Part shown: positions 1,480 through 60,715 of the stretch, piece by piece
How positions within the stretch are numbered: the stretch's first letter is position 1
Layout of the letters: each line of letters opens with the position of its first letter
From: an uncultured Clostridia bacterium
GTDB lineage: Bacteria > Bacillota > Clostridia > Christensenellales > Borkfalkiaceae
Reading direction: 5' to 3'
DNA length: 64,000 nucleotides
Assembly: GCA_944330115.1 (NCBI GenBank)
Contig: CALVIN010000003.1
Span: 186,001-250,000 of the forward strand
Position numbers and translations under genes: made by a program
Notes under the pieces: generated by a model
What the model saw: only the letters and a program-made list of their open reading frames with translations
Told to the model about the DNA's origin: nothing
Databases searched by the model: none

Positions 1480-2288
1480 CGGAAAAGCGGCTGCGCCGCG
1501 TGAAACCCCTCCTTTAATTCCGTCTTGCAGTGCGTGCGGTAAATAAACCGCACTGCGGCGGTCACCGCTCGCGCGCTGACATATGCGCTCGCTCATCTCA
1601 CTGCGGCACGCACAGCGGGTGTCCGCTGTGCTATGAAATGCCTCGCTCGTCCCTCAAAGGGGAGGTGAATAATAAGGTGAAAATGCCGTGCGCAAAACGC
1701 ACGGCATTAAACTTTTCAAAATAAATAATGGCGCGAGGCTGAATTTATTTCAGCCGTTAAGCGCAACGAATTTACGCCGCCATTTTTGAGCGGTGAAACC
1801 CCACCGAGTTTCGCTATGCTCAACCCACCTCCCCTCGAAGGGGAGGTAAGCCGAAGGCGAAAGAGGGGTAATTCAAAACAAATAATGTTTCAAGCAGGGG
1901 TCTCAAGCAATGTAAGGACAACATTGCTTTCGGTCACCGTTCGCGCTTTTGTCTATGCGCTCACTCATCTCATTGCACACGAAAGGCGGGTGTCCGCCTT
2001 TCTATGAAATGTGCAATTCGTCCCACCGCAGCAGGACTCAATTTGCGCCGAAAGGCGGCTCATCTGCCGTTTCCCTTCGGGAGCCTCGGCAGAGTGTCGT
2101 CGCTTGCGCTCCTCGCTGGAGGTGAATGGCGGCATTTCTGATAATTGTGGGCCCTTAAAAAATGCCGCCAGAGGAACTTAGTTCCTCAAAATCACGGAAA
2201 ATTCCGCTATCTGCCGTTTCCCTTCGGGACCTCGGCAGAGTGTCGTCGCCTTCGCTCCTCGCGCGGCCCGCGCAAAAAATTTGTGAAC
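1480..2288. repeat. Mosaic hairpin-repeat block
   Basis: This 0.8 kb spacer has no credible gene. It holds, in order: AAACCCCTCC; a GTCACCGCTCG unit; a hairpin CACAGCGG-GTGT-CCGCTGTG (1611-1630); an AGGGGAGGT motif (1660); a GCCGTGCG hairpin (1682-1707); the GGCTGAA/TTCAGCC module ending GTTAAGC (1737-1760); an ACCTCCCC...AGGGGAGGT palindrome (1827-1848); a second GTGT hairpin with stem GAAAGGCGG (1981-2002); and two CTGCCG/CGGCAG units (2065-2100, 2212-2240). A stem TGGCGGCATT pairs with AATGCCGCCA (2127-2170). The block ends with GTGAAC at 2283-2288, 4 bp from the next gene's stop codon. The same modules recur elsewhere in the window. Confidence 0.85.
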
Positions 2289-9983: not shown

Positions 9984-12017
9984 TTATTCGCTCTTGATCT
10001 TGCCGAGATTGTATTGCGCCGCAAATTTGCGCGCGGCCTCCACTATCTTTGCCTTGAGCTCGTCGGATACCTTTGCGCCCTTTTTGACCTCTTCGCAGAT
10101 ATCGGGGCAGGCCTCGTCGAAATAGGCGAGCAGCTTATCCTTGAAATCGGGCACGTCGTTTGCATCGACTTCGATGATGCCGTGGCCGAGCGCGGAGGCA
10201 AGCAGCAATACCTGCTGATACATCTGCAGCGGGCGCGACTGCGGCTGGCGCAGCAGCATCATAAGGCTCTTGCCGTACATGAGCAGCTTTTTGGTGGCGT
10301 CGTCGAGGTCGGAGGAGAACTGCATGAACACCTCCATCTCCCTGTACTGCGCGAGGTCGAGGCGCAGAGGGCCGGCTATCGACTTCATGGCCTTGGTCTG
10401 CGCGTCGCCGCCCACACGCGACACCGATATGCCGACGTTTACCGCGGGGCGCTGGCCCGAGAAGAACAGGTCGCTCGCGAGGAAGATCTGGCCGTCGGTT
10501 ATTGAAATTATATTCGTAGGGATATATGCCGAGATGTCGCCCGCCTGCGTTTCGACTATGGGCAGGGCGGTTATCGAGCCGCCGCCGTTTTCATCCGAGA
10601 GATGCGCGGCGCGCTCAAGAAGGCGGGAGTGCAGATAGAATACGTCGCCGGGGTATGCCTCACGGCCGGGCGAACGGCCTAAAAGAAGGGAGAGCGCGCG
10701 GTATGCCACGGCGTGCTTTGAAAGGTCGTCGTAGATAATGAGCACGTCCTTGCCCTGGCGCATGAAGTATTCGCCCATGGCGCAGCCCGAATAGGGGGCT
10801 ATATATTGCAGCGAAGCACTGTCGCTGGCGAAGGCGCACACTATTATAGTGTATTCCATGGCGCCGCGGCGCTTGAGCATTTCGGCAAGGCGGGCAACCG
10901 AGCTGGCCTTCTGGCCTATGGCTACGTATATGCAGATGACGTCCTTGCCCTTTTGGTTGAGTATGGTATCGGTGGCGATGGCCGTTTTACCCGTCTGCCT
11001 GTCGCCTATTATAAGTTCACGCTGGCCCCTGCCTATGGGGAACATCGAGTCGATGGCGAGTATGCCCGTTTCGAGCGGCCTGTTTACCGGCTGACGGTCG
11101 ACAATGCCGGGCGCGGGGTTCTCTATGGGCATGTAGGCCTTGGCCTCTATTTCGCCGCCGCCGTCGATGGGCGAGCCGAGCGCGTCCACCACCCTGCCTA
11201 TCAGTCCTTCGCCCGCGGGCACGCCCGCAGTTTTGCCGGTGCGGTATACGGCGCTGCCCTCTTCGACCTCTCTGTCGTCGCCGAAGAGTATGGCGCCCAC
11301 GCCGTCCTCGCCGAGCTCCTGCACCATGCCCTTTATGCCGCATTCAAAGGTGACTATCTCGCCGTATTCGACGAGGTCGAGCCCGTCGATGCGCGCAATG
11401 CCGTCGCCCACGGAGAGCACTTTGCCCGTCTCGTGCGCGGTAAGAGGCATCGACCAGTTATCTATGGCGCTCTTTAAGCCCTCCACCGATTCGCGGAGGA
11501 GCGTGGTTACGTTTGCCGAGGCCTTTATGTCCTCTTTGAGGCGGTTTATCCTGCCCTGCGCCGACCAGTCGAACACGTTGTCGCCGTATTCAAGGCGGAA
11601 GCCGCCCACAACGGCCCTGTCGATCACTATCTCTATCTCGGGACGCACGCCGTAGGTCTTTTGCAAAAAGTCGGCAATGCCCCTGCGCTGTTCGGCCGTG
11701 GGGGGCGTTACGCAATAGAGGCGCGCCGAGGGAGTCTCGGCGGTAATTTCCTGCTGCCGGGCGGGCGAGGGGACTGTGCCCGTCAAGTCGTCCTTTATCT
11801 TCTGTACGCTGCCGCGCGCCGACCAGTCATACACGTCGCCGCCGCACTCGAGGCGGAAGCCGCCCACGAGGGAATTATCTGTTATTATCTCCATCTGCGG
11901 GCGGGAGCCGTATTTGCCCTCGAGGAAGGAGAGTATCCCCTCCCTCTGCCCGGCCGTGGGGGGTGTTACGCAATATAATTTTGCCGTGAGGGCGGCAGGT
12001 TTTTTATTGTTTTCCAT
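9984..12017 (-). CDS. atpA: ATP synthase alpha subunit fused to two delta/OSCP C-terminal domains
   Basis: 677 aa, about 165 residues longer than usual. Residues about 168-677 are a complete alpha subunit ([10 protein letters not shown]-loop, [15 protein letters not shown]). Residues 12-79 and 97-165 are two tandem copies of a domain matching the C-terminal half of the delta subunit (compare E. coli MAGVIIRAGDMVIDGSVRG with [19 protein letters not shown] here). By hand alignment the copies agree at about 38 of 65 positions. A Pro/Gln/Glu linker joins them. No atpH exists: atpF overlaps the atpA start by 14 bp, leaving no room. In ordinary enzymes the delta N-terminal domain docks on the alpha N-terminus, so the fusion may replace that docking. 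The start has GGAGGC upstream. Confidence 0.95.
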
Positions 12018-12708
12018 CGCTGCCTCCGCTCACGCTCTTTAAGAATTCGTCGTATACGGCGCCGTCGCTCTCCGCGGAGTGTCCGCGCTCGATAGCCGCA
12101 AGCGCCGCGTCGCCCACCGCCTCGGCGACCTTGTCGGAGGGGGCAGAAGGCTGCTGAGCGCTGCGCGCAAGGCGGGAAGCCATGGAGGCGCGCGCCTCGT
12201 TTGAAACGCCCTTCACCGTTATGTCCTTATCGGCAGTTTTGAGGTAGCTGTCGTAGAGGGCCCTGTCGCTCTCGGGAGTGCTGCCCACGGCGAGCAGTTT
12301 TTCGGCGGACTTTACGACCATGTCGGCTATCTCATCGCCCGCGCCCGCTATGTATGCGGCGCGCTCGTCCTCAGAGCGCTTTCTGCCTGCGGCGAGTATG
12401 CTCTTGGCCTCCTCTTCGGCATCGGCAACTATCTGACGGCTGCGCTTTTCGGCCTGAGCGAGCACCTCCTTGCGGTGCGCCTCGAGCTCTGTATCGAGCC
12501 CGGCGAGCTTTTCGGTGCGCTCCTTTTCGAGCTGCTCGATCTCGGCTACCTTTTGGGCATGCTCTTCGGCGGCCTTTTTATACTTTTCCTCGCGCTCGCG
12601 CATGAATTTGCGCACGGGCTTGAAGAGGATGAATGTGAGGCCGACGGCAAGTATTATAAAGTTGAAAGCATGCAGCAATATCTGCTGCCAATCGATATTC
12701 AAAGGCAT
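12004..12708 (-). CDS. atpF: ATP synthase b subunit with duplicated C-terminal tail
   Basis: 234 aa against about 160-170 usual. One N-terminal membrane helix (residues 10-30), a long charged helix (35-125), then a typical b C-terminus (about 126-160: [27 protein letters not shown]). After a linker comes a second similar segment (about 194-228: [27 protein letters not shown]). The b tail normally binds the delta C-terminal domain; here both partners are doubled. This is peripheral-stalk architecture, with the membrane end in Fo. The GGAG site lies between a repeat element's end (GTGAAC) and the ATG. Overlaps atpA by 14 bp. Confidence 0.93.
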
Positions 12709-12719
12709 AAAAAAACTCC

Positions 12720-13056
12720 GTTCACAAATTTTTTGCGCGGACCGCGCGCAAAAAATATCGTGAGATTTTGGGGAGCCAGCTCCCCCTTGATACGCGCGGC
12801 TGAAAACATTTCAGCCGTTAAGCGTGACCATATTTGCGCCGCCATAGGCGGCAGAGGGGTTTCATTTCTAAAACAAATAATGTCGCAAGGCGGGTTTCCC
12901 GCCGCCGCAGGACCCAATTTGCGCATACCTGCGCCTCAGCAGGGTGAATTCGCGCGACTATACGCTCCGTGGGCCCTTAAGGTCGCGCGAAGAGGGGCAG
13001 CGCCCCTCAAAATCACGAAATTTTTTGCGCGCGGCCCGCGCAAAAAATTTGTGAAC
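12720..13056. repeat. Complete 337-bp hairpin element filling the atpE-atpF gap
   Basis: Bounded by GTTCAC (12720-12725) and GTGAAC (13051-13056). The terminal inverted repeats run at least 20 bp (GTTCACAAATTTTTTGCGCG on both sides), and each end also folds into its own hairpin. Inside lie GGCTGAA/TTCAGCC with GTTAAGC (12798-12820), the GGCGGGTTTCCCGCC hairpin (about 12887-12902), and the TTCGCGCGAC/GTCGCGCGAA stem with GGGCCCTTAA in its loop (12949-12991). The right end touches the atpE stop codon; the left end touches the atpF ribosome site. Confidence 0.9.
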
Positions 13057-13482
13057 TTACAGTACGAAAATCAAAAGTACCGAAACTATCAATGCGTAAA
13101 TTACTACCGTTTCGATGAACACAAGTCCGAGCATCATCGTCGAGCGGATGTTGCCCGAGGCCTCGGGCTGGCGGGCTATGCCCTCCGACGCCTTGGCTAT
13201 GGCAAGGCCCATTCCTATCGCGCCGCCGAGTGCGGCGAGACCTATTGCTATGCCTGCGGCGATCGCCTTGCCGCTGGTGGCCTGCGCCTCGGCTTCTTCG
13301 GCAGAGGTATCCGTTTCGTAATCGGGAAGCACCTCGTTTTCGTCCGCGCTGGCTGCAACATACGTATCGGCAGCGGCGGGGAGCGTATCGGCCGGCTGCA
13401 CCGCCGACATTATCACCAGACCTGCCGCAAGCGCGATGAGCGCAGCTATCACTATACCGGTTATTCTCTTTGCAATTTTCAT
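13057..13482 (-). CDS. atpE: ATP synthase c subunit with N-terminal extension
   Basis: 141 aa; the usual c subunit is 70-90. Residues about 70-141 are the two-helix hairpin with polar loop ARQPEASGNI and the ion-binding carboxylate Glu124 (FIETVVIYAL). The position matching Gln32 of the Na+-binding Ilyobacter c subunit is Met91, which argues for protons. Residues 1-30 are a hydrophobic signal-like or membrane segment, followed by an acidic Ala/Asp/Glu stretch (about 31-68). The extension may be a cleaved signal peptide or a third helix; the sequence does not decide. A repeat element starts directly after the stop codon. Confidence 0.93.
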   Translation of the reverse strand: MKIAKRITGIVIAALIALAAGLVIMSAVQPADTLPAAADTYVAASADENEVLPDYETDTSAEEAEAQATSGKAIAAGIAIGLAALGGAIGMGLAIAKASEGIARQPEASGNIRSTMMLGLVFIETVVIYALIVSVLLIFVL

Positions 13483-15892: not shown

Positions 15893-16548
15893 GTTCTCTC
15901 GTTTCCCCTTCGAGGGACGAGCAAGGCATTTCATAGCACAATGGACACCCATTGTGCGTGCCGAGCGAGATGAGCGAGCGCATATGTAAGCGCGCGAGCG
16001 GTGACCGATGCAGTGCGGTTTATTTACCGCACGCACTGCAAGACGGTGGCATATACGAGCACCGCGAGTATATGACGGAGGGGTTTCACTTGCCGTCCCT
16101 TATAGGGAAGGTGGCGCTAATGAGCATAGCGAATTAGCGACGGAAGGGTTTTTATAGTCGCTTTTTTAACCCTTTCGGCAGGAACTTGCAACTGCAAGTT
16201 CCTGCCACCTCCCCTTCAGGGGAGACAAGGGTGTATTCACACCGCTTCCCTTTATTTGCTTTCAATAGTCGAGCAAATGAAACCCCTCCGTCTTTGCCTC
16301 GCTCCGCTCGGCAAATCCACCTCCCGCTCAAAGGGGAGGTACTTAATGCGGTAAAAAATCACCTCCCCTTTAAGGGGAGGTAAATAATGTAACACGAAAT
16401 ATTCCGCTATCTGCCGTTTCCCAAAGGGAGACATCTGCCGTTTCCACCCTGCGGGCGGAGCCACGGCAGAGCAGCGGCTTTAAAGCCTCGCGCGGCAGAG
16501 TGTCGTCGCCTTCGCTCCTCGCGCAGCCAGAGCGGAATTTTTGTGAAC
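15893..16548. repeat. Mosaic hairpin-repeat block downstream of tRNA-Arg
   Basis: No credible gene. Modules include the GTGT-type hairpin in reverse (GCACAATGG-ACAC-CCATTGTGC, 15936-15957), a GAGCGGTGACCG unit (15996-16010), GACGGAGGGGTTTCA (16075), CCTCCCC/AGGGGAG palindromes (16207, 16319, 16362), and stacked CTGCCG/CGGCAG units (16408-16500). It ends with GTGAAC at 16543-16548, 8 bp from the tRNA 3' end. The 250 bp to its left (15637-15892) is AT-rich, with nothing I can name. Confidence 0.85.
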
Positions 16549-17187: not shown

Positions 17188-18294
17188 ATGAACAAAAAGA
17201 CTGCCGTGGTCGGCCTGAGCGGCGGGGTAGACAGCTCCGTCGCCGCGCTGCTTTTAAAGGAGCAGGGCTACAACGTGATAGGGCTGTTTATGCTCAACTG
17301 GGAGGAGGAGGGCGAAAACGGCGCTTGCACCGCCGAGGAGGACTTCGACGACGTGAAGCGCGTGTGCGCAACGCTGGATATACCCTATTACAGCGTGAAC
17401 TTTGCCAAACAGTATTACGAGCGCGTGTTTGAATATTTTTTGCGCGAATATAAGGCCGGACGCACGCCCAATCCCGACGTTTTATGCAACCGTGAGATAA
17501 AATTCGGCCCCTTTAAGGAGTACGCCGAACACCTCGGCGCAGACGTGATAGCCACGGGGCACTACTGCGGGATAGCGCACGAGGGCGGGCGCAACTACCT
17601 TTTAAAGGCCAAAGATACAGGCAAGGACCAGACCTATTTTTTGAACCAGGTGCGCGAGGAGCAGCTGAATAAGATAGAGTTCCCGCTCGCCGCGCTCACC
17701 AAGGCCGAGGTGCGCGAGATCGCGCAAAAGCATGGGCTTGCCAACGCCAAAAAGAAGGACAGCACGGGCATATGCTTCATCGGCGAGCGCAACTTCCGCG
17801 CATTTTTAAAAAATTATCTGCCCGCGCAGCCGGGAGAGATACGCACGCTCGAGGGCGAGCGCGTGGGCGAACACGAGGGGCTGATGTATTACACCCTCGG
17901 CCAGCGCAAGGGGCTGGGGCTGGGCGGCATGCACGGCGAGGACGGCCGCTGGTTTGTGGTAAAAAAGGACCTTGAACACAACATACTGTACGTTTCGCAC
18001 GGGGACGAGGGGCCGCTCTATTCGGCGGCGTGCATCGCCGAGGAGTGCAATTTTATCGGCTTCGAGCCGCCCGCGGGCGAATTTGAGTGCACGGCAAAGT
18101 TCCGCTACCGTCAGCCCGAGCAGAAGGTGCTGGCAAAGTATGAAAACGGGCAGCTGAAAATAGAGTTTGCCGAGAAGCAGCGCGCCGTCACCGAGGGGCA
18201 GTATGCCGTTTTATACGACGAAAAGCGCTGTTTGGGCGGCGGAGTGATAACAGAAACTTATTCACGAAATTCTTCGGCTGGTGCCGCCGAATAA
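17188..18294 (+). CDS. mnmA: tRNA-specific 2-thiouridylase
   Basis: 368 aa. It makes the 2-thio group of U34 in Lys/Glu/Gln tRNAs using ATP and relayed sulfur. ATP-binding loop SGGVDSSVA (residues 10-18); catalytic cysteines in NPDVLCNREIKF and STGICFIGER; GHYCG and AKDTGKDQTYFL motifs follow. The C-terminus is odd: the last ten codons (SRNSSAGAAE) and the stop codon lie inside a repeat element that starts at 18261, so the original end was replaced or extended by insertion. The core enzyme looks intact. Stands alone on the plus strand. Confidence 0.95.
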   Translation: MNKKTAVVGLSGGVDSSVAALLLKEQGYNVIGLFMLNWEEEGENGACTAEEDFDDVKRVCATLDIPYYSVNFAKQYYERVFEYFLREYKAGRTPNPDVLCNREIKFGPFKEYAEHLGADVIATGHYCGIAHEGGRNYLLKAKDTGKDQTYFLNQVREEQLNKIEFPLAALTKAEVREIAQKHGLANAKKKDSTGICFIGERNFRAFLKNYLPAQPGEIRTLEGERVGEHEGLMYYTLGQRKGLGLGGMHGEDGRWFVVKKDLEHNILYVSHGDEGPLYSAACIAEECNFIGFEPPAGEFECTAKFRYRQPEQKVLAKYENGQLKIEFAEKQRAVTEGQYAVLYDEKRCLGGGVITETYSRNSSAGAAE

Positions 18295-19085
18295 TTTCCG
18301 TGATTTTGGGGGAGCCCTTCTCGCGCGGCGAGCGGTATAGTACCGCCGCGCTCGGTCACCGCTCGGGCTTGCGTTTGCCCTCGCTCATCTCACAATGCGC
18401 AAACAGCGCGTGTGTGCTGTTTGCAGAAATGCATTGTTCGACCCCCTTGCCCCGATTTTAGGGGGGCTCTCATATCATATAATCGGGGCAATTCCCCCTT
18501 TGGTGCGCGAGCGAAGCGCTGCCCTGCCGAGGCTCCCGAAGGGAAACGGCAGATGCGCAGGTATGCGCAAATTGAGACGAGCGGCACATTTCATAGAAAG
18601 GCGGACACCCGCCTTTCGTGTGCCGCGGAGAGGCGAGCAACACACTTCTTCAAACAGTGGACACCCACTGTTTGAGTGTTGCGAGGTGAGCAAACACTCT
18701 ACTTGTGTTTGCGGTGACCGAGCCGATGGCTGCCCTTACCATCGGCGAGAAGTGACATGCCGAGCGAAGCGTGAGGCGTCTCGGGGACGACCAACGAGGC
18801 ACGAGGCGACCCTGCTGCGGCGGGAAACCCGCCTTGCGACGTTATTTTATTTTAGAATTTAATGCCGTGCAGTCGCACGGCATTTTCACCGCAAGGGTGT
18901 AGATGGTGGGTATCGGAGAGAGCGGCTTAACACATTCCCTCGTCTCCCCTTCAGGGGAGGTGGCGCGACGAGCTACGCAAGGAGCGACGAAAGGGTTTTG
19001 AAATTTGCGGCGCATTTTAACCCTTCTGTCGCAGTTGCGCTATAGCGCAACTGCGACATCTCCCCTATAAGGGGAGACGAGAAGG
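18261..19085. repeat. Large mosaic hairpin-repeat block after mnmA
   Basis: Begins with the terminal hairpin TTCACGAAATTCTTCGGC...GCCGAA..TTTCCGTGA, which overlaps the mnmA 3' end. Then follow GGTATAGTACC, CGGTCACCGCTCG, a GTGT-type hairpin (stem GCAAACAGC, 18399-18424), the TTGCCCCGATT/AATCGGGGCAA stem (18447-18491), a CTGCCG/CGGCAG unit (about 18528-18550), two more GTGT-type hairpins with different stems (GAAAGGCGG 18596-18617, CAAACAGTGG 18651-18674), a GCGGGAAACCCGC hairpin, a GCCGTGC hairpin (18862-18883), and CTCCCCTT palindromes (18945, 19060). A long reading frame here is repeat-derived, not a gene. Confidence 0.88.
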
Positions 19086-23085: not shown

Positions 23086-23306
23086 ATGCCGTGCGACTGC
23101 ACGGCATTAAGTTTAAAATAAATTAACGTTTCAAGCAGGGTTTCCCTGCGCCGAAAGACCCTATTTGCTGCGGTCAGCAGGCTCACCAAAGGGGGAATTG
23201 CCCCGATTATATGATATGAGAGCCCCTAAAATCGGGGCAAGGGGGAGCTGGCTCCCCAAAAATCACGGAAATTGTTCGGCGTCACCAGCCGAAGAATTTC
23301 GTGAGC
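23086..23306. repeat. Hairpin element downstream of ricT (reverse copy of the 30267 element)
   Basis: Contains a GCCGTGCGACTGCACGGC hairpin, GCAGGGTTTCCCTGC, the TTGCCCCGATT/AATCGGGGCAA stem with GAGAGCCCCTAA in its loop (23198-23240), GGGGGAGCTGGCTCCCC, and a terminal hairpin ending GTGAGC (23301-23306), 3 bp from the ricT stop codon. Closely related, in opposite orientation, to the element at 30267-30551. Confidence 0.88.
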
Positions 23307-27394: not shown

Positions 27395-27979
27395 GTTCCC
27401 CCGCGCCAAAAGGCCACACTTGCGCCGCCCTTCCCACCCTTACACCTCCCCTTCGAGGGGAGGTGGGTTGAACGAAGCGAAACCCGAAGGGGTTTCACTC
27501 GCCGTCCCTATAGGGAAGGTGGCACGCCTTTCTTCTTTATACCTCCCCTTCGAGGGGAGGTGGCATATACGAGCACCGCGAGTATATGACGGAGGGGTTT
27601 CATATCGAGCACGTGAAACCCCACCCTACCCTCCCCTCGAAGGGGAGGTAAAGAAGTAGGATAGCCGCCCGCTCAAAGGGGAGGTACCTAATAAAGCAAA
27701 AAATGCCGTGCGCAAAACGCACGGCATTAAATTTAAAAATAAATTACGTTTCAAGCAGGGTTCCCCTGCGGAAGAGCAAAATTCCCAAACAAATAATGTG
27801 CGCAAGGCTGAATTTAGTTCAGCCGTTAAGCGCGACTCAATTTGCGCCGTCAGGCGGCTCACCGGAAGTGAATGTCGGCGATTATATAATATGAGAGCAC
27901 TTAAAAATCGCCGACAGAGAAACTTGGTTTCTCAAGTCACGAAGATTTTTCGCTGTCACCAAGCGAAAAATCTGTGAGC
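27395..27979. repeat. Mosaic hairpin-repeat block downstream of lysS
   Basis: Four ACCTCCCC/AGGGGAGGT palindromes (27446, 27541, 27628, 27667) with GGGGTTTCA units. Then a complete element: GCCGTGCGC-AAAA-CGCACGGC hairpin (about 27706-27725), GCAGGGTTCCCCTGC, GGCTGAA/TTCAGCC plus GTTAAGC (27806-27832), the GTCGGCGATT/AATCGCCGAC stem (27874-27915), and a terminal hairpin ending GTGAGC (27974-27979). It touches the lysS stop codon with no gap. Confidence 0.88.
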
Positions 27980-30266: not shown

Positions 30267-30551
30267 GTTCACGAAATTCTTCGGCTGGTGCCGCCGAATA
30301 ATTTCCGTGAGTTTTGGGGAGCCAGCTCCCCCTTGCCCCGATTTTAAGGGCTCTCATATCATATAATCGGGGCAATTCCCCCTTTGGTGAGCCTGCTGAC
30401 CGCAGCAAATAGGGTCTTTCTGCGCAGGGGAACCCTGCTTGAAACGTTAATTTGTTTAGAAATGGAACCCCTCCGCCGCCTGCGGCGGCACCTCCCCTCA
30501 AAGGGGAGGTACAAGTGCGGCAAAAATGCCGCGCGCAAAAAATTTGTGAAC
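30267..30551. repeat. Complete 285-bp hairpin element after the aminotransferase gene
   Basis: Bounded by GTTCAC (30267-30272) and GTGAAC (30546-30551); the last base is shared with the alaT-like stop codon (TAG). Modules: terminal hairpin with TTCGGC/GCCGAA, GGGGAGCCAGCTCCCCC, the TTGCCCCGATT stem (30333-30375), GCTGACCGCAGC, GCAGGGGAACCCTGC, GCCGCCTGCGGCGGC, a CCTCCCC/AGGGGAGG palindrome (30491), and the distal ATGCCGCGCGC end. The roughly 280 bp between the element and greA is AT-rich, without a gene. Confidence 0.9.
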
Positions 30552-35387: not shown

Positions 35388-35690
35388 TTCACGAAAAATC
35401 TTTTGGCTTTGCCAAAATCTTTTTCCGTGAGTTGCTGCGGTATTAAATCGGCTTAACGGTGGAAGTAAATTCCACCTTGCCGACTTTCATATTCACGCGA
35501 AATCTTTTGCTGCGCAAAATCTTTCGCCGTGAGGTTGCTGCGGTCGTAAAAATGCTTAACGGCGAAAATAAATTCCGCCTTGCAAGTTTTAGTTCACGCG
35601 AAATCTTTTGCTGCGCAAAATCTTCCGCCGTGAGGTTGCTGCGGTATTAAATCGGCTTAACGGTGGAAGTAAATTCCACCTTGCCGATTT
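35388..35690. repeat. Three tandem ~102-bp copies of a hairpin repeat
   Basis: Copies start at 35388, 35492 and 35593 (periods 104 and 101 bp). Each holds a TTCACG...CGTGA terminal hairpin and a GCTTAACGG...TTCC.CCTTGC hairpin (GGTGGAA/TTCCACC in copies 1 and 3, GGCGAAA/TTCCGCC in copy 2). To the right, 35691-36110 contains further small inverted repeats and AT-rich sequence but no gene. Spacer regularity is not that of a CRISPR array: there is no unique spacer between identical repeats. Confidence 0.88.
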
Positions 35691-36118
35691 TTTGACCTTT
35701 TTTATTTTTAAACTTTGCTGCGGTGAAAAGTTTTTTGTGCCTTGCAAAGTTTTTAACGCTCGCGCCGGCTCGCTTAACTTTTCAAGGCGGAAACGATATT
35801 TTTCGTGCCGCCCATTCGGGCGGTTTACATTAAATAATATATTAAAAAACTTGGGGCGCATAATAAAATTTTTGCTCGCATTTTGCCGCATAAATGCGAA
35901 AGATATTGCCGTATATATATTTAAAGGCGCGCCGTGGCGGCCGTCTTTTGCCGTTATGCGTAAGGGCGCAGAGCGCCGCGCGGGCGGCGGAGCGCAGATT
36001 TTTTAAATATTTTAACAAAATTCGTTAATTTATTTCATTCAGCATTTTTATGCGGCAAAATTAAATAAAAAAATCGCCGTTTATTTATTTTACATAAGAT
36101 TTTTTATGTTTAAAATAA

Positions 36119-60288: not shown

Positions 60289-60715
60289 GTTCACAAATTT
60301 TTTGCGCGGGCCGCGCGCAAAAAATTTCGTGAGTTTGAGGGGCGCGTCTCACGCGGCGGGCGGTATAGTACCGCCGCGTTCGGTCACCGCTCGGGCGTGC
60401 ATATGCCCTCGCTCATCTCACAATGCGCAAACAGCGCGTGTGTGCTGTTTGCAGAAGTGCATTGTTCGTCCCTCTTCGCGCGACCTTAAGGGCCCCCGAA
60501 GCGTATAGTCGCGCGAATTCACCCTGCTGCGCGAGCGAAGCGCTGCCCTGCCGAGGCTCCCGAAGGGAAACGGCAGATGCGCAGGTATGCGCAAATTGTG
60601 TCCTGCGGCGCAGGGAAACCCTGCTTGCGACGTTATTTATTTGGAAATAACCCCTCCGCCGCGGCCTCGCTTCGCTTGTCCGCGTCACCTCCCCTTTGAG
60701 GGGAGGTATAGGAAA
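60289..60715. repeat. Mosaic hairpin-repeat block upstream of spoIIR
   Basis: Starts GTTCACAAATTTTTTGCGCG with its paired GCGCGCAAAAAATTTCGTGA (60289-60332). Then GGTATAGTACC, CGGTCACCGCTCG, the GTGT-type hairpin with stem GCAAACAGC (60427-60452), the TTCGCGCGAC/GTCGCGCGAA stem (60475-60517), a CTGCCG/CGGCAG unit (about 60543-60572), GCAGGGAAACCCTGC, and an ACCTCCCC/AGGGGAGGT palindrome (60686-60708). About 260 bp of it (60346-60600) is nearly the same as 18335-18600. Confidence 0.88.

Follow-up and report, generated by a model that had tools for sequence, protein, structure and literature searches.

The stretch analysed here, referred to as the window, comprises 64,000 nucleotides and corresponds to positions 186001-250000 of contig 3 in a genome of 1,765,568 bases in 15 contigs. 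Within its ATP synthase operon, between the stop codon of atpE (13057-13059, minus strand) and atpF (12004-12708, minus strand), lies c2, a copy of a dispersed intergenic repeat of about 190 nt which is made up of five hairpins, H1 to H5. The hairpin described in the earlier note is H3, the third of the five, and is not the self-standing unit that it was taken to be. Alignment of the copies with their flanks gives the order, 5' to 3', of an AT-rich start (TTTTAAAATAAnTnACG), H1, H2, a short segment X, GAA, H3, H4, a short A-rich linker, H5 and GTGAAC. The H4 duplex has a purine 5' arm and a pyrimidine 3' arm, and it is to this duplex that X corresponds. Versions of H1 elsewhere in the genome are GCAGGGTTTCCCTGC, GCAAGGTTTCCTTGC and GGCGAATTTAGTTCGCC, and the H2 loops of other copies are tetraloops of the GNRA type (GAAA, GCAA, GTAA, GAGA and GGAA). 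Tandem copies have a period of about 191-193 nt. The features are listed in Table 1.

Table 1. Positions in the window of copy c2, its parts, the piece opposed to it, and H3 of the other copies.
Feature	Position	Strand	Description	Basis
Complete element, copy c2	12866..13054	+	~190 nt	copy alignment, boundary profile, Pfam of neighbours
H1 of c2	12889..12903	+	GGCGGG TTT CCCGCC	copy alignment
H2 of c2	12921..12934	+	GCGCA TACC TGCGC	
X of c2	12942..12946	+	proposed third (reverse-Hoogsteen) strand, GGGT+G; mirrors H4 5' arm	
H3 of c2	12949..12991	+	variable stem, loop TATAnn..GnGrGCCCTTAA	
H4 of c2	12992..13008	+	GAGGGGC AGC GCCCCTC	
H5 of c2	13013..13054	+	long terminal hairpin TCAC[G]...GTGA, one unpaired base on 5' strand	
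Partial element (H5+H4)	12720..12790	-	orientation opposite to c2; ends ~11 nt before atpF start codon	
H3 of c1	2127..2170	+	stem TGGCGGCATT	
H3 of c3	18447..18491	-	stem TTGCCCCGATT	
H3 of c4	23198..23240	+	TTGCCCCGATT	
H3 of c5	27874..27915	+	TGTCGGCGATT	
H3 of c6	30333..30375	-	TTGCCCCGATT	
H3 of c7	60475..60517	-	TTCGCGCGAC	

In some of the aligned copies other palindromic modules replace H1, and in some they interrupt H4, H5 or the junction of H2 and H3. Copy c1 carries one such module inside its H5 loop (about 2208-2264) and another in place of H1, and in c3, whose H5 is at about 18262-18302, H4 is interrupted by a palindromic module of about 130 nt which also interrupts H4 of c7. This module, GGTCACCG..CGCTCATCTC..CTCGTCCC, occurs at 1545-1660, 1905-2024, 15904-16030, 18320-18460 and 60340-60490, has nested variable stems, and either replaces H1 or sits in H4 of the element. 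Another module, ATCTGCCGTTTCCC..GGGA(G)CCTCGGCAG, is found at 2058-2110, 2208-2264, 18524-18560 and 60548-60584, where it has entered either the H2-H3 junction or the loop of H5. Module insertions seem to prefer the hairpin loops of other repeats. At 35389-35691 there are three tandem units of about 102 nt. In every unit a TTCACG..CGTGA hairpin resembling H5 comes first, and behind it stands a GCTTAACGG..CCTTGC hairpin in which the stem changes.

The seven H3 copies reported for the window were all found where the earlier note had placed them, with arms of 10-11 bp that are perfectly complementary in 7/7 and with four stem sequences among them (TGGCGGCATT, TTCGCGCGAC, TTGCCCCGATT and TGTCGGCGATT). 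The TATA said to be common to their loops is lacking in the copy at 2127, which has TGATAAT instead. For the whole genome, the stretches around pattern matches were used; the pattern, GNGRGCNCYTAA, was taken from the loop only and carries no stem information, and the reversed pattern served as the control. There were 50 matches in 1.77 Mb compared with 4 for the control. Inspection of the arms showed that 6 of the 50 were chance matches with no surrounding element, leaving approximately 44 element copies, of which about 40 have a perfect H3 stem and four have one to three mismatches; unpaired arms in most copies, which the note had named as the outcome that would count against it, did not occur. 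Further stems in this genome are TTTGCGCAAT and TTGCCGCGAC, and one copy with a mismatched H3, L051, resembles a chimaera of two subfamilies.

Over 34 copies from this genome, 96.4% of cells were paired, compared with 78.8 ± 0.8% after shuffling and 37-50% on sliding, and the covariation score was 0.489 against 0.182 ± 0.010 after shuffling. In H3, H4 and H5 of these copies, 23 of 35 pairs have changed on both sides. The four stems of the window had been presented as independent of one another, and about four are, but the seven copies belong to amplified subfamilies and the independence comes mainly from the genus as a whole, where there are 38 different 8-nt H3 5' arms, 15 of them mutually different at no fewer than three positions. 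H1 and H5 vary as H3 does, with pairing kept, and dozens of sequence replacements are seen across H1, H3 and H5. Of 110 distinct H5 hairpins, 106 retain one unpaired base in the 5' strand, close to the foot of the stem. The claim of a conserved structure with variable sequence was right, and is stronger than the window alone could show.

Mutual information, calculated over 102 full copies, singles out not only the helices but also X, the segment immediately 5' of H3. Column 86, which lies in X, co-varies with both halves of the H4 pair 138-148. The base before GAA (x1) is T where the second H4 position (h2) is A, and G where h2 is G (T/A in 91, G/G in 29). For the layer x3-h4 the counts are G/G 83, A/A 24 and T/C 13, and for x4-h5, where x4 equals h5, they are G/G 76 and A/A 42. 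X is thus the mirror of the H4 purine arm, with the layers G*G·C, A*A·T, T*A·T and T*C·G, T opposite C·G being part of the purine-motif triplex code. Over 80 distinct combinations of X and H4, an average of 3.70 out of 4 layers agree with this code, compared with 2.46 ± 0.09 in permuted combinations and a maximum of 2.84 in 5000 permutations; since the copies are related and their kinship was not modelled, this comparison does not provide an exact p-value. The coupling persists while H3 is exchanged: nine different H3 arms accompany the pair AGGGT/GAGGGGC, and ten X/H4 pairs are combined with the H3 arm TTGCCGCG. The layer x2-h3, otherwise a constant G*G·C, is T*A·T or else A*A·T, X and H4 having changed in step, in three genomes (G335, G316 and G210), and in distant copies of G335 and G316 the mirror extends to 7-9 layers, eg GGTAAAAGAAT..H3..GAAAGAAAAAAC. 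All seven copies of the window fit the code. There is also a hint of a contact between x6 and the H4 loop (columns 83-143, 91% complementary in the 102 full copies).

X might instead pair with the H4 3' arm in parallel Watson-Crick fashion, but this was rejected, since x1 would have to be A where it faces A·T, and x3 would have to be C where it faces C·G, and both are T. The layers G*G·C, A*A·T and T*A·T are those of the antiparallel purine-motif triplex, for which classes have been defined (PMC4666352). The coupling of X and H4 follows the code for an intrastrand triple helix of the purine motif, class I, and it is from covariation that the triplex is inferred. The strand order is that of class I, with X as the reverse-Hoogsteen strand, the H4 5' arm as the purine strand and the H4 3' arm as the pyrimidine strand, in an antiparallel mirror code; relative to the ITxF search definition of the class (loops of 1-6 nt, stems of 6-15 nt), the first loop is too long, being the H3 of about 43 nt, and the stem is too short, with mostly 4-5 layers per copy. 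Stems which change while remaining paired, together with a neighbouring strand which co-varies in the way a triple helix would demand, suggest that what selection maintains is the shape of the folded DNA and not its sequence.

The position of the element relative to genes was determined with simple longest-ORF gene calls. In 57 of 86 cases a stop codon is found at a distance of 0-12 nt from the 3' end of H5, compared with 2 of 67 for the 5' end of the element (p = 2e-17). Where H5 faces a start codon, it is 5-30 nt away in 19 of 46 cases, with a cluster at 9-16 nt. Both orientations of the element relative to the adjacent gene are found. In the window, H5 of c2 ends 2 nt from the atpE stop codon, H5 of c5 ends just past the stop codon of lysS, c4 lies between a ferredoxin-like gene, which is convergent, and a gene with a PSP1 domain, and c6 is upstream of a greA-like gene. 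Between atpE and atpF (12720-13058) there are two opposed pieces of the element, with arms of 57 nt which are 88% complementary, and by its sequence the operon transcript could fold there into a very long hairpin. At c3, H5 overlaps the 3' end of the mnmA reading frame, which enters the hairpin and stops within it, as if the native stop codon had been removed by the insertion. At the 3' boundary of lysS the element is present 2-8 nt past the stop codon in 6 of 30 genomes and absent from the other 24, and the stems at this site differ between species; presence and absence were compared between species, with one genome for each, and the congeners have diverged too far around the empty lysS site to display an exact empty site or a target duplication. 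The lysS pattern may have arisen by insertion at this site more than once, or by one old insertion that some lineages lost and whose stems were replaced.

This genome gave 59 strong full-length matches to a covariance model of H3 to H5. The model also matched 34 of 61 related genomes, every one of them in the same genus, in which copy number varies from 0 to more than 60 per genome. A second model, built from the relatives, matched 9 of 297 genomes across the order, eight from the same genus and one from a sister genus, and the public contigs with pattern matches have titles naming Candidatus Coproplasma. Among the 40 pattern matches, one that fits the loop pattern exactly (L207, 2092-2130) lies in a MAG labelled Alicyclobacillus sp. 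and may reflect a mislabelled bin, chance or transfer. That match aside, the element is restricted to Candidatus Coproplasma, a genus of gut bacteria, and a single sister genus. It was not found in the phages, plasmids and viral contigs searched, and at the Rfam gathering score the sole match in the window was to tRNA. A mobilising enzyme was sought among Y1 transposases, reverse transcriptases and tyrosine recombinases, and none could be linked to the element. The Y1 transposase (PF01797) is present in 11 of 41 genomes of the genus but in none of the copy-rich ones, being absent from this genome and from G005, G013, G015 and G029. Reverse transcriptase is missing from four of five copy-rich genomes and does not track copy number. 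Tyrosine recombinases are uninformative, as each of the eight genomes tested has them, those in which no element was detected included.

The reading that we favour, with a probability of roughly 0.55, is that of a non-autonomous mobile element which is recognised by its folded single-stranded DNA, triplex included. The conserved feature would be the fold of the single strand, comprising five hairpins, a class I purine-motif triplex of 4-5 layers, and the terminal H5 with its one-base bulge. The segment 5' of H3 would lie in the major groove of H4, with H3 extending between them. Such a fold would form in single-stranded DNA and be recognised by a putative structure-reading recombinase or transposase, and recognition of this type would explain why stems drift freely while pairing is kept. 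The 3' end of the element would then direct insertion to places beside stop codons or immediately before ribosome-binding sites. The more specific proposal, that the substrate is a three-dimensional single-stranded DNA fold in which the triple helix is itself selected and which a putative enzyme reads by shape, is put forward tentatively.

Could the folded molecule be RNA instead? On that account transcripts of the plus strand, either small RNAs or UTRs, would form the five hairpins and R·R-Y triples and serve regulation or RNA stability, and dispersal would be secondary. The segment folds well as RNA (predicted -85.6 kcal/mol, z = -5.0), the proximity of H5 to stop codons or start regions would suit such a role, and in E. 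coli an effect on translation is reported for REPs that have a stop codon within 15 nt (PMC12306157). Selection on RNA would, however, make G·U mismatches in the sense strand exceed A·C, and this wobble asymmetry, the expected marker of a transcribed strand, was not clearly seen; there are 6 G·U and 6 A·C in H3, 18 and 13 in H5, and 8 and 9 in H1, with no significant excess, compared with 8 G·U among 129 pairs in six tRNAs from the same loci (where A·C is hidden by the format of the program). Structure at the level of DNA is therefore more likely than RNA. Short R·R-Y triples occur in tRNA, and these together with the GNRA-like loops of H2 would be compatible with an RNA fold. Against it, the predicted DNA fold is at least as significant (z = -6.0), the element is found in both orientations relative to the neighbouring gene, Rfam offers no match, and according to a published study purine-motif triplexes cannot form in RNA (PMC4666352). 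The RNA structure implied in the earlier note is not favoured, G·U and A·C being similar in frequency and the additional covariation being of the purine-motif triplex type, and we regard it as rather unlikely.

The correction of palindromes without selection, by template switching or gene conversion between arms and between copies, would account for perfect stems with no G·U bias, for stems at orthologous sites that differ between species, as copying between loci would give, and for the chimaeric copy L051. It is nevertheless improbable; the copying of stem arms gives direct or inverted repeats and not mirror repeats, so that template switching cannot produce the coupling of X and H4, and correction would also erase the H5 bulge. 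Very improbable is the suggestion that H5 is a bidirectional transcription terminator and that the element spreads or stays by supplying terminators at gene ends. The location of H5 next to stop codons, and the A-tract, GC stem and T-tract of some versions, are as expected of a terminator, but many versions have no clean 3' T-tract (eg GCGCAAAAAATTTGTGA), in other copies the end is followed by a start codon about 12 nt on, a place where efficient termination would do harm, as it would inside the ATP synthase operon, and X and H1 to H4 are left unexplained. As an efficient terminator in general, H5 was rejected on account of copy c2.

Recognition of a folded single strand, as favoured here, may be set beside several known repeats. 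BoxC, PIT and TMECO are multi-copy intergenic repeats with three mirror segments, capable of forming a purine-motif triplex in one strand, and no link to the function of neighbouring genes was reported for them (PMC4666352). Like TMECO, the present element is multi-copy and intergenic, with mirror-related segments giving G*G·C, A*A·T and T*A·T in one strand. TMECO is, however, a 37-nt class II motif with segments of 9 nt and near-identical copies (PMC4666352), whereas here the order is that of class I, there are 4-9 layers, a variable hairpin of about 43 nt occupies the first loop, four further hairpins are present, and the third-strand bases co-evolve with the duplex. With REP/BIME and their RAYT it shares high copy number, intergenic palindromes, tandem or inverted arrays and a preference for the 3' ends of genes (PMC3733652, PMC12306157). 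A REP is a palindrome of 20-40 bp with a GTAG or CGTC tag (PMC3733652, PMC12306157); the element has about 190 nt, five hairpins, an AT-rich 5' end and a 3' end of GTGAAC, so that it differs in both size and tag, and copy-rich genomes have no Y1/RAYT gene. MITEs, ERIC/IRU and BOX are likewise non-autonomous, dispersed intergenic repeats of 100-200 nt, and BOX elements are modular, but the stem sequence of the present element is not conserved and, in contrast to a MITE, it has no terminal inverted repeats, its conserved ends (TTTTAAAATAAnTnACG and GTGAAC) not being complementary. Integron attC sites and the ends of IS200/IS605 are single-stranded hairpins recognised by shape and unpaired bases and not by stem sequence. 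The element would work like these without being a member, no integron or Y1 enzyme being linked to it, and in our analysis the most economical reading would be that an enzyme recognises the folded single strand, much as happens with attC or IS200/IS605. It is a new variant of the interspersed palindromic and triplex repeats, unlike REP, MITE and TMECO.

A second repeat family in the window, CCTCCCC-loop-GGGGAGG-T-[variable hairpin]-GGAGGGG, occurs at 16045-16088, 27444-27498, 27559-27602, 1793-1847, 30460-30512 and other positions. Its three segments mirror one another in the manner of a class II triplex motif, similar to TMECO, with the variable hairpin in the second loop, and the variant TCTCCCC/GGGGAGA/AGAGGGG mirrors as well. 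The mirror permutation test on this family was not significant (p = 0.23), with little variation and duplicated frames. Other repeat families of this genome may use the same principle of reading a fold.

Whether intrastrand DNA triplexes form in cells, and what their role is, are open questions, and because the copies of the known bacterial triplex repeat are near-identical little can be learned from their variation. A third strand that changes with its duplex, in a natural data set covering a genus, is evidence that selection sees the triple helix, and the element gives a handle on a mobile element that would be recognised by its fold and not by its sequence.
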